This document shows, piece by piece, positions 15,040 through 21,223 of a DNA stretch of 21,223 bases. The stretch is from an uncultured Alphaproteobacteria bacterium. Its GTDB lineage: Bacteria > Pseudomonadota > Alphaproteobacteria > Reyranellales > Reyranellaceae. Both the position numbers and the translations under genes were made by a program. Numbering within the stretch: position 1 is the first letter of the stretch; every line of letters begins with the position of its first letter. The DNA is taken from assembly GCA_903929895.1 (NCBI GenBank), contig CAIYWM010000835.1:1-21223 (forward strand). Direction: 5' to 3'. Below the pieces are notes generated by a model. That model was not told where the DNA came from. It searched no databases and saw only the letters and a program-made list of their open reading frames with translations.

Positions 15040-16155
15040 ATGCGCGTCGGTGTGCCGAAAGAGATCAAGACCCATGAATATCGCGTCGGGCTGACGCCCG
15101 GCGCGGTCCGCGAATACGTTCATGCCGGCCACGAGGTCGTGGTCGAGACCGGCGCGGGCGCCGGGATCGGGGCAAGCGACGAGGTCTACCGCACGGCGGG
15201 CGCGCGCATTGCCGACACGGCCGCCGAGATCTTCTCGACCGCGGAGATGATCGTGAAGGTGAAGGAGCCGCAGCCCGGCGAATGGGTGCAACTGCGCTCA
15301 GGCCAGATCCTGTTCACCTACCTTCATCTCGCCGCCGATCCCGCGCAGGCCAAGGGCCTGATTGAATCGGGCTGCACCGCCATCGCCTACGAGACCGTGA
15401 CCGATGCTCGCGGCGGCCTGCCGCTGCTCGCGCCGATGAGCGAGGTCGCCGGGCGTCTCTCGATCGAGGCGGCGGGCGGCGCCCTGCAGCGTCACCGCGG
15501 CGGGCGTGGCCTGCTGCTTGGTGGCGTACCCGGCGTCAAGCCAGCCCATGTCGTCGTGCTGGGCGGCGGTGTCGTGGGCACGCACGCCGCACGGATGGCC
15601 GCCGGGCTCGGCGCCGAGGTCACGGTGCTCGACCGCTCGCTGCCGCGGTTGCGCGAGCTCGACGAGCTGTTCCAGGGCCGGGTCCGCACGCGCTACTCGA
15701 CGATCGACGCCATCGAGCAGGAAGTCTTCTCGGCCGACGCCGTGATCGGCGCCGTGCTGGTGGCCGGCGCCACCGCGCCCAGGCTCGTGACCAAGGCAAT
15801 GCTGAAGTCGATGAAGCCGGGCGCGGTGATCGTCGACGTCGCCATCGACCAGGGCGGGTGCTTCGAGACCTCGCATGCCACGACGCATGCCGACCCGACC
15901 TACGAGGTCGACGGCATCATCCATTATTGAGTGGCCAACATGCCGGGCGCCGTCCCCGTGACCTCGAGCGAGGCGCTGAACAATGCGACCCTGCCGTTCG
16001 GCCTCGCCCTCGCCGCCAAGGGCCTCGCCGCCATCTCCGCAAACCCGCATCTCGCCGCCGGCCTCAACGTCCATCGCGGCCGCCTGACGCACAAGGCGGC
16101 GGCCGAAAGCCTCGGCCTTCCCTACGCGCCCGCCGAGCAGGCGATCGCCGGCTGA
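15040..16155 (+). pseudogene. ald: Alanine dehydrogenase, interrupted by an in-frame TGA codon
   Basis: Read through, this is a 371-codon alanine dehydrogenase plus the normal stop. The enzyme interconverts L-alanine and pyruvate plus ammonia with NAD. All four catalytic residues are at their family positions: R15 (HEYRVGL), K75 (VKVKEP), H96 (TYLHLA) and D270 (VAIDQGG). The NAD-binding loop GGGVVG is at 175-180. Codon 297 (15928-15930) is TGA, between GIIHY and [12 protein letters not shown]. Homologues have Cys or Ala here (HYCVANMPG), so the original codon was probably TGC or TGT. The frame is intact after it to the stop at 16155. Termination would give a 296-residue product lacking the conserved VANMPG loop and C-terminal helices. 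GGAG eight bases before the ATG supports the start. The gene is divergent from an AldR-like regulator. Confidence 0.9.
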
Positions 16156-16213: not shown

Positions 16214-16252
16214 TTGATTCCATCACTCCAACGATCTATGGATTGTTAGATC
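16214..16252 (+). promoter_or_regulatory. Promoter and inverted-repeat operator of the ArsR/SmtB-type gene
   Basis: TTGATT (16214-16219), a 17-base spacer and TATGGA (16237-16242) form a reasonable sigma-70 promoter. An inverted repeat, GATCTA (16233-16238) and TAGATC (16247-16252) with an 8-base spacer, overlaps the -10 box and stops just before the ATG at 16254. ArsR/SmtB repressors commonly bind such sites over their own promoter. The expected transcript start is about four bases before the ATG, and no ribosome binding site is present, so the mRNA may be almost leaderless. Confidence 0.5.
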
Positions 16253-16253
16253 A

Positions 16254-16568
16254 ATGGTAAGGAAATCCATACTCAAAGCGGCCGGCGGCCGGCACCTGGA
16301 AGAAGCGGCCCGCATGTTCGACGCCCTGTCGGACGTTGCGCGCCTGCGGACACTGATGCTGCTCGCCGACAACAACCTCAGCGTCTCGGAAATTGCCGCC
16401 GCCGAGGAAGAGAAGATCACCACCGTTTCGGCGCGCCTGCAGGTGTTGCATGCCGCCCGACTGATCGAGCGCCAGAGGGAGGGCAAGAGCGTCATCTACC
16501 GGATCGCCGACGATCACGTTCTCACGCTTGTCCGCAACGCCATCGCCCACGCTGGCGAGAGGCACTGA
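16254..16568 (+). CDS. ArsR/SmtB family zinc-sensing repressor with complete alpha-5 metal site
   Basis: This 104-residue winged-helix protein has the ArsR core: MFDALSDVARLRTLMLLADNNLSVSEIA (residues 21-48), the recognition helix TVSARLQVLHAARLIERQREGKSVIYRI (57-84), then the C-terminal helix. That helix reads D86-x-H88, ten residues, H99-x-x-E102. This is exactly the alpha-5 site that binds Zn(II) in SmtB and CzrA (D-x-H-x10-H-x2-E), so it should release DNA when zinc is plentiful. The Cys-based arsenic or cadmium sites (alpha-3 CxC) are absent. It precedes the His-rich gene by 23 bases and is presumably co-transcribed with and controls it. The start has no ribosome binding site; a later ATG at 16314 would remove only the N-terminal helix. 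Confidence 0.88.
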   Translation: MVRKSILKAAGGRHLEEAARMFDALSDVARLRTLMLLADNNLSVSEIAAAEEEKITTVSARLQVLHAARLIERQREGKSVIYRIADDHVLTLVRNAIAHAGERH

Positions 16569-16591
16569 ATTTTCACGAAAGGATGAATGTC

Positions 16592-16957
16592 ATGTCCAGC
16601 CACGACCATAAGATCCATGCCGACCATCCGCACGCGCATGGCCCAGCCTGCGGTCACACCGCGATCAAGCACGGCGATCATCTCGACTACCTGCACGATG
16701 GCCATCTCCATCACCCGCACGGCAATCACGTCGACGAGCACACGATCGAGGTGAGCGCCCACACTCCGGGGGCCTGCACGCCCGACCATGTCTGCGCCGG
16801 CCATGACAAGAACCACAAGCATGGCCCGGGCTGCGGCCACGAAGCGGTGCCGCACGGCGACCATGTCGACTACCTGGTCGACGGGCACCTGCATCACCCC
16901 CATGGCGCGCACTGCGACAACCACGGTCCCGTGGAGATCGTCCAGAAGGCCGCGTAG
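16592..16957 (+). CDS. Histidine-rich metal-binding protein with two tandem repeat units
   Basis: This 121-residue protein has 30 His and 5 Cys with many Asp and Gly, and no signal peptide or membrane segment, so it is probably a cytoplasmic metal-binding or storage protein. It is built on two copies of a 35-residue unit (residues 16-50 and 77-111; 26 identical positions). Each unit contains CGH, HGDH, DYL and DGHLHHPHG in order, separated by a spacer with ACTPDHVCAGHD. Zinc is the likeliest ligand because of the SmtB-type regulator before it and the Zur-like box and COG0523 genes after it; nickel or copper cannot be excluded. The ATG at 16592 is preferred over one nine bases earlier because AAAGGA sits eight bases upstream. 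A strong terminator follows. Confidence 0.86.
   Translation: MSSHDHKIHADHPHAHGPACGHTAIKHGDHLDYLHDGHLHHPHGNHVDEHTIEVSAHTPGACTPDHVCAGHDKNHKHGPGCGHEAVPHGDHVDYLVDGHLHHPHGAHCDNHGPVEIVQKAA
16637..16741 (+). repeat. First copy of the His-rich 35-codon repeat
   Basis: Codes for residues 16-50 of the His-rich protein. Shared landmarks with the second copy are C-G-H, H-G-D-H, D-Y-L and D-G-H-L-H-H-P-H-G. Confidence 0.85.
16820..16924 (+). repeat. Second copy of the His-rich 35-codon repeat
   Basis: Codes for residues 77-111 of the His-rich protein. It matches the first copy at 26 of 35 residues; one difference adds a Cys (HCDN where the first copy has HVDE). Confidence 0.85.
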
Positions 16958-16968
16958 CGCGGACCGAT

Positions 16969-16999
16969 AAAGGGGCGGGAGGCAACTCCCGCCCTTTTT
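16969..16999 (+). terminator. Strong intrinsic terminator after the His-rich gene
   Basis: A perfect stem, GGGCGGGAG (16973-16981) with CTCCCGCCC (16986-16994), closes a GCAA tetraloop and is followed by TTTTT (16995-16999). Upstream A residues can extend the stem into the T run. It separates the ArsR/His-rich unit from the Zur-box-controlled operon. Confidence 0.94.
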
Positions 17000-17030
17000 G
17001 TTTGCGCGCGATTCCGCAGCTTGACCATTA

Positions 17031-17053
17031 GAAATGTTATACTGTACCAATTC
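17031..17053. promoter_or_regulatory. Zur-like box (zinc uptake regulator operator)
   Basis: A 23-base pseudo-palindrome: the left half is GAAATGTTATA, the centre C, and the right half TGTACCAATTC. The left half equals the classic proteobacterial Zur half-site, and the right half matches its reverse complement (TATAACATTTC) at 8 of 11 positions. It is an AT-rich island lying 53 bases before the first COG0523 gene. It contains TATACT (17038-17043), which could be a -10 box, so a bound Zur would cover the promoter. Genes of the COG0523 family are well-known Zur targets, which supports the call. Confidence 0.7.
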
Positions 17054-17106
17054 TAGGAGACCACCGCAGACGCCCCTGGTCCGCAGGGGATTCCCGAGAG
17101 GCATTC

Positions 17107-18066
17107 ATGGATCAGGTCCCCGTCACCGTGCTGACCGGATACCTCGGCGCCGGAAAGACAACCCTCCTCAACCGCCTGCTGACCGAGCAGCACGGCCGGA
17201 AGTTTGCCGTCATCGTCAACGAGTTTGGCGAACTTGGCATCGACAACGATCTCGTCGTCGATGCCGAGGAAGAAGTGTTCGAGATGAACAACGGCTGCAT
17301 CTGCTGCACCGTGCGCGGCGATCTGATCCGCATCATCGAAGGGCTGATGAAACGCAAGGGCCGCTTTGATGCGATCCTGATCGAGACCACGGGCCTGGCC
17401 GACCCGGCGCCGGTCGCCCAGACCTTCTTCGTCGACGAGGACGTGCGCAGCCGGACCCGGCTCGATTCCATCATCACGGTCGTCGATGCGAAGAACTTTC
17501 TGCAACGGCTGGAAGACAGTCATGAAGCCGCCGAGCAGGTCGCCTTCGCCGACATCGTTCTGCTGAACAAGGTCGATCTCGTCCCGGCCGAGGAGGCGGC
17601 CCGCGTCGAGGCCCGCATCCGCGCGATCAATCCGATGGCCCGCCTGCACCGGACCGATCATTGCGCCCTGCCGGTCACGGAGCTGCTCGATCGCGGGGCC
17701 TTCGACCTCAACCGCATTCTCGAGATCGAGCCCGGCTTCCTGGGCGAGGACGATCACGAGCACGACGAGGCAATCACCAGCGTCTCGTTGCGGGCCTCGC
17801 GGCCCGTGGATGCGCCCCGGTTCACGACATGGATTTCAGAACTGCTGCGCGTTCGTGGCACCGACATCCTTCGCTGCAAAGGCATCCTCGAGCTGAACAA
17901 CAGCCCCAACCGCTATGTGTTCCAGGGCGTGCACATGCTGATGGATGCCACCGTCGGCAGACCCTGGAAGGATCACGACACACGCGAATCGCGCTTCGTC
18001 CTGATCGGTCGGAATCTCGACGCGGCAGCCCTCAAGGCGGGATTCGAGTCGTGTCTGGCGCCGTGA
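17107..18066 (+). CDS. COG0523 (CobW-like) GTPase, putative zinc metallochaperone
   Basis: This 319-residue G3E-family GTPase has a Walker A motif GYLGAGKT (11-18), the metal-binding CICC motif (C64, C66, C67) within NNGCICCTVRGDL, ETTG (93-96), NKVD guanine specificity at 154-157, and a CobW C-terminal domain from about 225. The short acidic-His segment EDDHEHDE (214-221) can bind metal. COG0523 members of this type use GTP to hand zinc to client enzymes when zinc is scarce. GAGAGG five bases before the ATG supports the start. It is the first gene after the Zur-like box, and its stop overlaps the start of the DUF1826 gene. A role with cobalt or nickel cannot be excluded by sequence. Confidence 0.92.
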   Translation: MDQVPVTVLTGYLGAGKTTLLNRLLTEQHGRKFAVIVNEFGELGIDNDLVVDAEEEVFEMNNGCICCTVRGDLIRIIEGLMKRKGRFDAILIETTGLADPAPVAQTFFVDEDVRSRTRLDSIITVVDAKNFLQRLEDSHEAAEQVAFADIVLLNKVDLVPAEEAARVEARIRAINPMARLHRTDHCALPVTELLDRGAFDLNRILEIEPGFLGEDDHEHDEAITSVSLRASRPVDAPRFTTWISELLRVRGTDILRCKGILELNNSPNRYVFQGVHMLMDATVGRPWKDHDTRESRFVLIGRNLDAAALKAGFESCLAP

Positions 18067-18677
18067 CCGTACGGGTCGTCGAGAGCAGCGATGACGCCGT
18101 CCTGCATCGGGTTGCCGAGAACGACGTCGCCCTCGCCATCTGGCATCGCCCCCAACCGGCGGGGCTGGCCGCCTGGCTCGATTCCCTGCCGGCGGAACGC
18201 CTGCCCGAGGGCCACTTCATCGGACCGGCCGCCTGCGTCCCGGCCCGGCTCGCCGCCCTCTGCGATCTCGTGGAGCTTGCGGACAGCCCCGAGCGCCGCG
18301 CACTGATCGACGATATTGCCGGGCTTGCACGCTGCTTCGCCGCGCGCGCCGGCAGCCCCGACGTCGACCTGCGCTTGGAAGCGATCACCCATGACGCCTG
18401 CTGGCGGTTCCATCGCGACCATGTCGGCTACCGTCTCAACGCAACCTATCGCGGGCCCGGCACGCAATGGCCGCCACTCGAGCATGCCGCCCGCGCGCTG
18501 AAGGCGCAGCGCCGCTATCGCGGGCCCCTGAACGAATTCCCGCGCTTTGCCGCCGGTCTGTTCAAGGGCGTGGTGCGGGCCGGGACGAAAGCCATCGTGC
18601 ACCGCTCACCCCCGGTCGCCGGCAGCGGCCAGACGCGACTCTTCCTCTGCCTCAACGAGGTTCATGACGATGAATAG
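18063..18677 (+). CDS. DUF1826 domain protein, possible iron-dependent enzyme
   Basis: This 204-residue protein belongs to the DUF1826 family, commonly found beside COG0523 GTPases in zinc-limitation loci; its function is unknown. The conserved core is [20 protein letters not shown] (113-132) continuing into GTQW, and later [11 protein letters not shown] (174-184) followed by [10 protein letters not shown]117-x-D119 plus H180 with a nearby Arg resembles the HxD...H iron site and 2-oxoglutarate-binding Arg of Fe(II) dioxygenases. This is my inference and not an established fact. The GTG at 18063 overlaps the upstream stop (GTGA); a GTG 12 bases earlier is also possible. Its last 8 bases overlap the next COG0523 gene. 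Confidence 0.8.
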
Positions 18678-19875
18678 GCTCCCCGTCACCGTGCTGTCCG
18701 GCTATCTCGGCGCCGGCAAGACGACCTTGCTCAACCATGTCCTGAACAACCGCGAGGGCCGCAAGGTCGCGGTGATCGTGAACGACATGAGCGAGATCAA
18801 CATCGATGCCGCCCTCGTGCGCCAGGGCGGCGCCGAGTTGAGCCGCAGCGAAGAGAAGCTGGTTGAGATGTCGAACGGCTGCATCTGCTGCACCCTGCGC
18901 GAAGATCTCCTCGAGGAGGTCGAGCGGCTGGCAGCCGAGGGACGCTTCGACTATCTGCTGATCGAATCGACCGGGATTTCCGAGCCCATGCCGGTCGCCG
19001 CCACCTTCGAATTCGAGGACGAGGCGGGCAAGAGCCTGTCGAAGGTCGCGCGCCTCGACACGATGGTGACGGTGGTCGACGCCCGGGCGTTCATCGAGGA
19101 GTACAGCTCGGCCGACTTCCTGCATCAGCGCGGCCAGACCGCCGAGCCCGAGGATACGCGGACGGTTGTCGACCTGCTGGTCGAACAGGTCGAGTTCGCC
19201 GACGTCATCGTCGTGAACAAGGCCGATCTCGTCTCGCCCGATGAACTCGGCTTCCTGAAGACGATGCTGCGGCGTCTCAATGCCAAGGCCCGGATCGTCA
19301 CCGGCGAGTTCGGCAAGGTGCCACTCGACCAGATCATGGACACCGGCCTGTTCTCCTATGAGAAGGCCAGCGAGGCCCCCGGCTGGATGCAGGAGATGCG
19401 CGGCATCCATACGCCGGAAACCGAGACCTACGGTTTCTGGAGCTTCGTCTACAAGGCCCGCCGGCCGTTCAATCCCATGCGCCTCTACGCCCTGCTCAAC
19501 GGCCGCTGGGACGGTGTGATCCGCTCCAAGGGCTTCTTCTGGCTGGCGTCACGCATGAACTTCGCAGGCTCCCTCAGCCAGGCCGGCGGCATGCTTCGCC
19601 ACGAAGCAGCAGGCGCCTGGTGGGCGGCGGTGAAGCGCGAGGACTGGCCCCAGGATTCGACCTGGCGCGCCACCATCCGCAATTCCTTCAAGAGCCCCTA
19701 CGGCGACCGCCGGCAGGAGATCGTGTTCATCGGCACCAAGGGCATGGACCGCAAGGAACTCACGCGCCGTCTCGATGACTGCCTCCTGACCGACGCCGAG
19801 ATGAAGATGGGACCCGCGATGTGGGGCCGGCTCCCCGACCCCTTCCCCGTCTGGAAAATGCCGGGGCACGAATGA
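18670..19875 (+). CDS. COG0523 (CobW-like) GTPase, longer ZagA/ZigA-like type
   Basis: This 401-residue G3E GTPase has Walker A GYLGAGKT (11-18), CICC (C71, C73, C74), ESTG (99-102) and NKAD (183-186). Its longer C-terminal half carries [28 protein letters not shown] and the terminal VWKMPGHE. The length and this C-terminal part match the YciC/ZagA/ZigA branch, which is induced by zinc starvation and supports zinc-dependent enzymes. It differs clearly from the 319-residue paralogue upstream, so the two are old paralogues rather than a recent duplication. The ATG at 18670 is preferred over one at 18664 because GAGG is nine bases upstream. Its stop overlaps the start of the next small gene by four bases (ATGA). 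Confidence 0.92.
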
Positions 19876-20165
19876 GCCACCGACATCCATCGGCCACCGG
19901 CCGCGACGACGGCGCAGCGACAAGCCCCGAGGCGCGGATTGCGGAGGTCCATGCGGCCGACGTCGCCAAGGCCCGCACCCTGCTGAAGGACGCCATCGCC
20001 TCGGCGCGGGAGCAATGGCTTCCGGGCAATGCGATCGCCGACGCCCTGGTCCAGGAACTGATCGACCTCGGGTCGCGCGGAGCGCCGCCGGCCCGGACTT
20101 CGGCCTATCTCCGCGGCGTCGCACATCTGCTCGACGACGCGGCGGCCGCCCCCAGGACGAACTGA
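19872..20165 (+). CDS. Small hypothetical protein in the zinc operon
   Basis: This 97-residue protein is not recognised. It starts with an ATG overlapping the upstream stop (ATGA), so it is almost certainly translated with its neighbour. The first 20 residues are polar with two His (MSHRHPS). The rest is mainly helical and Ala-rich ([18 protein letters not shown], then [13 protein letters not shown], then [15 protein letters not shown]). There are no Cys, signal peptide or membrane segments. Position between the COG0523 gene and the iron alcohol dehydrogenase gene (14 bases on) suggests a shared role, but none can be named. Confidence 0.62.
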
Positions 20166-20179
20166 CGAGACGGCGCGAC

Positions 20180-21223
20180 ATGGCGATTCTGAGCTATCTC
20201 ACCACCACGCATTTCGACTTCGGCGCCCTCCGCATCCTGCCGAAGGAGCTGGAACGTCTCGGCATGCACCGGCCGCTGATCGCGACCGACCGCGGCGTCC
20301 GCGCCGCCGGCCTGCTCGATGCCGTGCTCGCCGTCATTCCAGGCGCCCAAGACATTCCCGTCTTCGACGACACGCCCGGCAATCCCACCGAAGCGGCGGC
20401 GCTGGCGGCCTTCGATCTCTACCAGGCGAACGGGTGCGACGGTGTCATCGGCCTGGGCGGTGGATCGTCCATGGACCTCGGCAAGGCCGTCGCCCTGCTG
20501 GCCGGTAGTGGCGGCTCCCTCGACCGCTACGATCCGCTGACGGGCGGTGCCCGCCGGATCGACCGGGTCGCGCCGGTCATCGCCATTCCCACCACGTCGG
20601 GCACCGGCAGCGAAGTGTCGGTCGGCTTCGTGATCGTCATGAAGGACGGCCGCAAGCTCACCTTCGCCAGTCCGAAGATGATCCCGAGCGTCGCGATCTG
20701 CGATCCCGAACTGACCCTCGGCCTGCCGCCCGCGCTCACGGCGGCGACCGGCATGGATGCGGTGACCCATTGCATCGAGGCCATCCTGTCGCCGGTGGTG
20801 AATCCGCCGGCGGAAGGGATCGGGTACGACGGGCTGCGGCGGGCCTGGCGGCACATCGAGAGGGCCGTGCAGGACGGCAGCGACCGCGAGGCACGCTGGA
20901 ACATGATGATGGCGTCGACCGAGGGGGCAATGGCCTTCGTGAAGGGATTGGGCGCCGTCCACTCGATGAGCCATGCCGCCGGTCGCCTGCCCGGCCTCAG
21001 GCTGCACCATGGCACGCTGAACGCCGTGATCCTGCCGACGATCCTGCGCTTCAACGCCGGCACGGCGCCCGAGAAATACGATCGGATGGCCGAAGCCATG
21101 GGCCTCTCCACCGGCGCCGATCTGGCCGAGGCGGTCCTGGCGCGCAACGCGAGCATCGGCCTGCCCGGCGGACTGCGCGTGATGGGCGTCACCGAGGAGA
21201 TGATTCCCGACCTCGTGCCGCAC
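20180..21223 (+). CDS. Iron-containing (group III) alcohol dehydrogenase, 3' end cut by window edge
   Basis: 348 residues of an iron-type alcohol dehydrogenase (usual length about 380-390), open to the window edge. The NAD-binding GGGSSMDLGK (93-102) and TTSGTGSEVS (138-147) are typical. The metal ligands appear as D193 and H197 (MDAVTHCIEA), H261 (VHSMSHAAG) and H277 (LHHGTLNA), closely matching the positions in E. coli FucO. It oxidises an alcohol or reduces an aldehyde; the substrate is unknown. Start choice: first ATG in frame, 14 bases after the previous gene, with only a weak ribosome binding site. As the last visible gene of a Zur-box operon, it may replace a zinc alcohol dehydrogenase during zinc shortage; that is inference. 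Confidence 0.92.
   Translation, partial: MAILSYLTTTHFDFGALRILPKELERLGMHRPLIATDRGVRAAGLLDAVLAVIPGAQDIPVFDDTPGNPTEAAALAAFDLYQANGCDGVIGLGGGSSMDLGKAVALLAGSGGSLDRYDPLTGGARRIDRVAPVIAIPTTSGTGSEVSVGFVIVMKDGRKLTFASPKMIPSVAICDPELTLGLPPALTAATGMDAVTHCIEAILSPVVNPPAEGIGYDGLRRAWRHIERAVQDGSDREARWNMMMASTEGAMAFVKGLGAVHSMSHAAGRLPGLRLHHGTLNAVILPTILRFNAGTAPEKYDRMAEAMGLSTGADLAEAVLARNASIGLPGGLRVMGVTEEMIPDLVPH

Follow-up and report, generated by a model that had tools for sequence, protein, structure and literature searches.

Do two gene units that lie back to back on a bacterial contig answer zinc in opposite directions? The locus that raises this question lies on a 21,223-nucleotide stretch of DNA (the window), which is the whole of contig C835 of a Reyranella metagenome-assembled genome (MAG; G000; 1031 contigs, 84% complete, 7% contaminated). 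The first unit consists of a gene for an ArsR/SmtB-family metal sensor and a gene for a His-rich protein, here called HisR. The second, on the same + strand, is a five-gene operon that follows a Zur-type box and encodes two COG0523 GTPases, a DUF1826 protein, an orphan protein, and an iron-type alcohol dehydrogenase (Fe-ADH). An original prediction, made from the sequence, had described the locus in these terms, with a terminator between the units, and had read it as a complete zinc economy system with iron-enzyme substitution under scarcity. The description proved accurate; the sensor, its partner, the box and the recurrence in relatives bear out part of the interpretation, whereas completeness and enzyme substitution were overstated or found no support. 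Judged from the DNA, the locus probably comprises two adjacent zinc-homeostasis units of opposite logic, for which the evidence is good in the case of a Zur switch and fair in the case of an ArsR switch. The features concerned are as follows.

16217..16250, + strand: imperfect inverted repeats before ArsR, recognized by their repeat arms; candidate ArsR operator.
16254..16568, + strand: ArsR/SmtB-family metal sensor (match to NF033788); the start could be somewhat downstream.
16583..16957 (alternative start 16592), + strand: HisR, a two-repeat His-rich protein with 30 His and 5 Cys in 124 aa.
About 16969..17003, + strand: intrinsic terminator closing the ArsR-HisR unit, recognized by fold energy and by a hairpin with a T run.
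17031..17053 (17034-17050 as scored), no strand assigned: Zur-type box of the starvation operon, 20.5 bits.
17107..18066, + strand: YjiA-like COG0523 GTPase (PF02492, 211 bits; PF07683, 96 bits).
18063..18677, + strand: DUF1826 protein (PF08856, 155.8 bits, cut-off 22).
18670..19875, + strand: ZigA-type COG0523 zinc metallochaperone GTPase (NF038288, 648.4 bits, cut-off 600).
19872..20165, + strand: 97-aa orphan protein from a small family that is conserved and linked to the ADH, with no Pfam or NCBIfam match.
20180..21223, + strand: iron-type alcohol dehydrogenase, incomplete (PF00465, 143 bits).

The case for a starvation switch begins with the box. We scored it with a matrix derived from eight boxes that lie outside the window; two of these were copied by hand, and one (L100) precedes the DUF1826 gene of another species. 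Apart from the box, the highest-scoring separate site in the window reached 6.0 bits, and the 20.5 bits of the box were attained in none of 60 window-long first-order Markov sequences and none of 3000 simulated gaps. The named relatives close to the window ZigA are Reyranella MAGs, dozens of further genomes share the genus, and our genus sample comprised 61 genomes with G000 included. At 12 of 13 Reyranella loci, counting the window, a site that differs from an idealised 17-mer at 2 to 4 positions is found no more than 200 bases from the first operon gene (the window box differs from the 17-mer at 4); at the thirteenth, L019, a Zur-like site lies ~0.5 kb upstream. The box is kept before the operon whether a YjiA or a DUF1826 gene leads. 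Elsewhere in the genome, where the prediction had suggested looking for a zur gene and further boxes, we found a Fur-family protein (L003) whose best family model is Zur, and similar boxes, one located 83 bases upstream of the matched portion of ZnuA and another 18 bases ahead of a TonB receptor gene. The sequences of established Paracoccus Zur boxes are related to the present ones (PMC5387054).

The operon behind the box contains two distinct GTPases, as predicted. The second is of ZigA type; the first is YjiA-like, its best NCBIfam model being PRK11537 at 230.5 bits, under the equivalog cut-off of 361, and it is left as a COG0523 protein without an assigned subfamily. The genes had been predicted to overlap, and three junctions do so, by 4, 8, and 4 bases; the ADH, in contrast, starts 14 bases after the orphan stop codon. 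A second YjiA-like COG0523 gene occurs in G000 on contig C730 (L208, 5908-7933), followed by a protein that by eye looks to be of WD40 type, and a COG0523-WD40 pair adjoins HisR on a Paraburkholderia plasmid (L190).

Gene order recurs among relatives, which the prediction had named as one of the points on which it could fail. The full seven-gene order is present in two genomes, G000 and G028, and HisR stands directly before the operon in six of the nine genus genomes that have HisR (G000, G028, G008, G034, G025, and G069). It lies ~2.7 kb away in G006 and G070, and in G063 the ArsR-HisR pair stands alone. The operon itself varies: G008 and G034 carry it without the orphan and ADH genes, G025 has DUF1826-ZigA followed by another COG0523 gene, and G030 has DUF1826-ZigA only. 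Among 37 genus genomes searched for both, 10 have DUF1826 and 6 have HisR, and every genome with HisR also has DUF1826; the probability of this by chance is 9e-5 if genomes are treated as independent, and these genomes are related. Across G028, G006, G065, and G009, the operon is followed by a HisI paralogue (HisI2), a second Zur-like Fur, and a third COG0523 gene. These genes and the zinc transporters lie outside the window, in relatives, and the proposed completeness of the system is to that extent unsupported or overstated. The second Zur-like Fur has no Pfam match at 1e-5. Fur, HisI paralogue, and third COG0523 gene recur as a block beside the island-type ADH (that of the operon) at L103 (3226-5439), L150 (5878-8040), and L151 (5808-7962).

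What, then, points to zinc excess as the signal for the first unit? The ArsR of the window matches NF033788 at 67.1 bits (cut-off 55) and therefore has the winged-helix ArsR fold by sequence; its closest solved structures are SmtB (1r22, E 1.1e-11) and CzrA. Its last helix, DDHVLTLVRNAIAHAGE, carries the alpha-5 metal-site pattern DxH-x10-HxxE, as expected of the SmtB-type zinc sensor that had been predicted. We take the DxH...HxxE/H residues to be the metal ligands of this helix. The pattern occurs in all 13 HisR-linked ArsRs compared, the window included; eight of these come from Reyranella, one each from Pantoea and Pediococcus, and three from other genomes, one of which is L183, where ArsR lies 2.1 kb from HisR. 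Known alpha-5 ArsR sensors are derepressed by metal. The candidate operator has ATTCCAT...ATGGAAT arms that are perfect over 7 to 8 bases in L101 and L104. Palindromes with perfect 11-base arms precede ArsR-HisR in L161 (Pantoea) and HisR in L183, and were matched by 1 and 3 of 1000 shuffled stretches, respectively. Within 220 bases of the window ArsR start there is no Zur-like site, the best candidate having 8 mismatches. In G006 (L019), ArsR-HisR is arranged back to back with znuA, and the shared gap contains a Zur box as well as an inverted repeat distinct from it.

HisR begins 14 bases after ArsR on the same strand and, with its 30 His, is the His-rich partner that had been foreseen. It consists of two repeats of the form HGPxCGHxAxxHGDHxDYLxDGHLHHPHGxHxDxH. 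Of 3990 candidates, 3985 proteins qualified as homologues at E <= 0.001. HisR itself matched no Pfam or NCBIfam model, a search for solved relatives up to E 1 found none, and none of the 120 homologue matches listed carried a Pfam domain. Among the matches listed, a few bear the source label 'threonine dehydratase', and a short Rhodococcus gene matching one third of HisR is labelled 'zinc transporter permease'; a literature search returned no paper on HisR among its listed matches. Because HisR is not Cys-rich (5 Cys vs 30 His), we rejected its classification as a metallothionein of the SmtA type, with a Cys-rich zinc cluster. Its distribution is patchy: it occurs in 9 of 61 genus genomes, in 6 of 299 genomes drawn from the phylum, in 6 of 385 drawn from the class, and in 6 of the 196 sampled from one other family, where the genus, phylum, and class counts each include G000 and some copies are partial or contain stop codons. 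In one protein (P0076), ArsR and HisR are fused in one chain, a single example that could be a gene-call error. Downstream of HisR, the fold energy of 16955-17015 is -36.4 kcal/mol (z -5.6; none of 200 shuffles as good), in keeping with the predicted strong terminator, and the hairpin and T run are kept in L101, L103, and L106; a generic pattern scan of the window did not report this terminator.

In the model that we favor, ample Zn(II) would occupy the alpha-5 site of ArsR and take the sensor off its operator, so that ArsR and HisR would be made; HisR would then buffer zinc through its His residues (about 30) and 5 Cys, by analogy with SmtA under the control of SmtB. Under scarcity, Zn-free Zur would leave the box at 17031-17053, the YjiA-DUF1826-ZigA-orphan-FeADH operon would be expressed, and the two GTPases would steer the remaining zinc to selected client proteins, with the terminator separating the two units. 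The direction of sensing, repression by Zur, and the GTPase role are modelled here on known families. The predicted opposite switching is supported at the level of motifs.

Several observations weigh against this model. The Zur-like proteins L003 (121 bits) and L103 (the second Zur-like Fur, 107 bits) fall under the 167-bit cut-off of the Zur model, which is of E. coli type, and the repeat arms of the candidate ArsR operator do not match perfectly in the window copy. A whole-genome search for the 17-mer with up to 3 mismatches hit one place, as did its reversed control; the window box has 4 mismatches, so such a search could neither detect it nor count a regulon, and we discarded the genome-wide mismatch count, in which signal equals control. 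HisR has no ArsR next to it in 14 of the 18 loci from outside the genus and in 1 of the 9 from within. The 4 of 18 outside loci with ArsR directly upstream led us to reject ArsR-HisR as an obligate pair (L188 and L189 are from one genome, and L194 begins 97 bases before HisR). Among the 80 ZigA loci listed for named genomes, HisR occurs in only L017 and L019, both Reyranella-type, and we likewise rejected the idea that Zur/ZigA operons in general include HisR as a fixed component. Finally, in L190 and L193 the neighbors of HisR are COG0523 genes, and there HisR could be part of the starvation side.

The last point suggests that both units might serve starvation, with HisR acting as a high-affinity store or chaperone from which the COG0523 GTPases receive zinc, while ArsR only tunes HisR. 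The position of HisR directly before the Zur operon in most HisR-bearing genus genomes would fit, as would its neighbors outside the genus, namely COG0523 genes in Paraburkholderia pl2 (L190) and, on a Streptomyces plasmid (L193), COG0523 together with a second S14 ribosomal protein gene. We nevertheless consider this improbable: between the units lie a terminator and a separate box, the window ArsR has no Zur-like site before it, and known sensors of its class are derepressed by metal.

The wider neighborhoods of HisR bear on the identity of the metal. An annotated zinc ABC transporter neighbors it in Paraburkholderia pl1, a CDF-type efflux gene lies on the same strand in L184, an ArsP-type permease adjoins it in L183, and neighborhoods such as L182, L185, L191, and L192 held, by eye, nothing clearly zinc-linked. 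The HisR unit might instead answer nickel, cobalt, or cadmium and lie beside a zinc operon only since metal genes gather there. Metal specificity differs among ArsR sensors; a NicO-type transporter adjoins the ADH in L103 and L019 (downstream of it, in G028 and G006), a TonB receptor and genes of cobalamin type (the latter by eye) flank HisR in L181, and arsenic-type genes, again by eye, lie near it in L163. Against these stand the four ArsR ligands, which match the SmtB pattern, and the surroundings of the module in relatives (znuA, zur-like, ZigA, and HisI2), and we regard another metal as quite improbable. We return to the reading of HisR as a zinc buffer on the excess side.

The last two genes of the operon pose a question of their own. 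The orphan has 31 database relatives, whose given source names are Reyranella sp. and a Rhodospirillaceae bacterium, and it occurs in 6 of the 61 genus genomes; in G000, G028, G006, G065, and G003 it precedes an ADH of island type. In G069 (L148, 12223-12552), the orphan is followed by only a short ADH remnant, about 64% identical. The ADH reading frame is open at the contig end, and both the ADH and its gene cluster extend beyond the window. The fragment scores 492.5 bits against NF058672 (4-hydroxybutyrate dehydrogenase; cut-off 500), and full-length orthologues pass that cut-off at 516.9 (L103, G028) and 508.3 bits (L019, G006). The motifs GMDAVTH, VHSMSH, and HHG are present and, aligned with solved Fe-ADHs, supply an Asp-His-His-His ligand set, at positions and with roles that we assume to be those of group III enzymes. 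Island-type ADHs (6 sequences) are 72 to 95% identical to one another and the members of another class in the genus (24 fetched sequences) 85 to 98%, vs 49 to 58% between classes. G000 holds both classes. The nearest paralogue of the window ADH there, 56% identical, also belongs to the Fe-ADH family, and for this reason we rejected a simple zinc-to-iron ADH exchange; the predicted iron-enzyme substitution was overstated for a 4-hydroxybutyrate-dehydrogenase-like enzyme with such a paralogue, and is a possibility only. As a guess, the enzyme might provide aldehyde/alcohol activity (probably of succinate-semialdehyde or 4-hydroxybutyrate type) with a non-zinc metal, or simply provide more enzyme, and the orphan might be its partner.

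Alternatively, Fe-ADH and orphan may be passengers inserted at the operon end that are co-transcribed by accident and play no part in zinc economy. The operons of G008 and G034 that do without both genes, the modest identity between the island class and the genus paralogue class, and the failure to identify a zinc-dependent counterpart would all agree with this. On the other side, orphan and island-type ADH stand together behind ZigA in the five genomes named above, with the remnant in G069, and the G009 contig ends within an ADH. In yeast, moreover, ADH4, an iron-family (group III) alcohol dehydrogenase under Zap1, is induced in zinc deficiency (PMC2535606). The yeast system differs in its eukaryotic activator and in the repression of two zinc ADHs in exchange. 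On balance, we think a passenger status possible but rather unlikely, and keep the ADH as a candidate member of the starvation response. A literature search on Zur-controlled iron-containing ADH found the term in none of the matches listed.

Both units have counterparts among known systems. In smtB-smtA of Synechococcus, an alpha-5 ArsR sensor is paired with a small metal-binding protein. ArsR-HisR likewise combines an alpha-5 sensor with a small protein predicted to bind metal; in contrast, its genes share a strand and HisR is His-rich, not a Cys-rich metallothionein, and we claim no homology. ArsR-HisR would thus be an analogue of smtB-smtA built on an unnamed protein family. Hpn of Helicobacter is a small His-rich cytosolic nickel protein that resembles HisR by description only, differing in regulation and metal.

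For the starvation operon, the closest match is the set of Zur-linked COG0523 clusters described by Haas et al. 2009 (PMC2770081), in which a pair of COG0523 paralogues is accompanied by DUF1826 and by HisI paralogues. The Zur box, the two COG0523 paralogues, and DUF1826 are shared, as are the HisI paralogue and zinc transporters nearby in relatives; the orphan and Fe-ADH as operon members and the ArsR-HisR unit in front are peculiar to the present locus. Alcohol dehydrogenase is not among the nine zinc-enzyme paralogue families listed in that article, and the term is absent from its main text. As far as the accessible article goes, the operon therefore belongs to this known Zur/COG0523 cluster type, with orphan and Fe-ADH as two new cargo genes that Haas et al. 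do not name. The PA5536-PA5534 unit of P. aeruginosa is also a zinc-starvation unit with COG0523 genes; it carries dksA2, and no ADH is named in the part of the report available (PMC10393844).

These comparisons invite a broader reading, which we offer tentatively and consider unlikely to hold as a whole. HisR would represent a widespread, hitherto unrecognized family of His-based metallothionein analogues, loaded with zinc under an alpha-5 ArsR. When Zur signals starvation, this store would supply the COG0523 GTPases, linking storage and allocation in a single system, and the group III ADH would be a further class of Zur-controlled replacement enzyme in bacteria. To our knowledge, the zinc source of COG0523 GTPases is an open question, and a predicted sponge gene beside two such GTPases offers a small, testable set-up for addressing it. 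Naming HisR, which has thousands of relatives, no family model, and misleading labels, would improve metal-gene annotation. The ADH part, if true, would carry the zinc-sparing switch of yeast Adh4 over to bacteria.

Upstream of ArsR lies an alanine dehydrogenase gene with an in-frame stop codon at 15928-15930, where all five relatives compared (L101, L103, L104, L105, and L106) have a Cys codon; the window gene is either a broken copy or reflects a MAG error. The zinc-gene content of the site adjoining this gene varies among the same five loci, resembling a variable insertion site.

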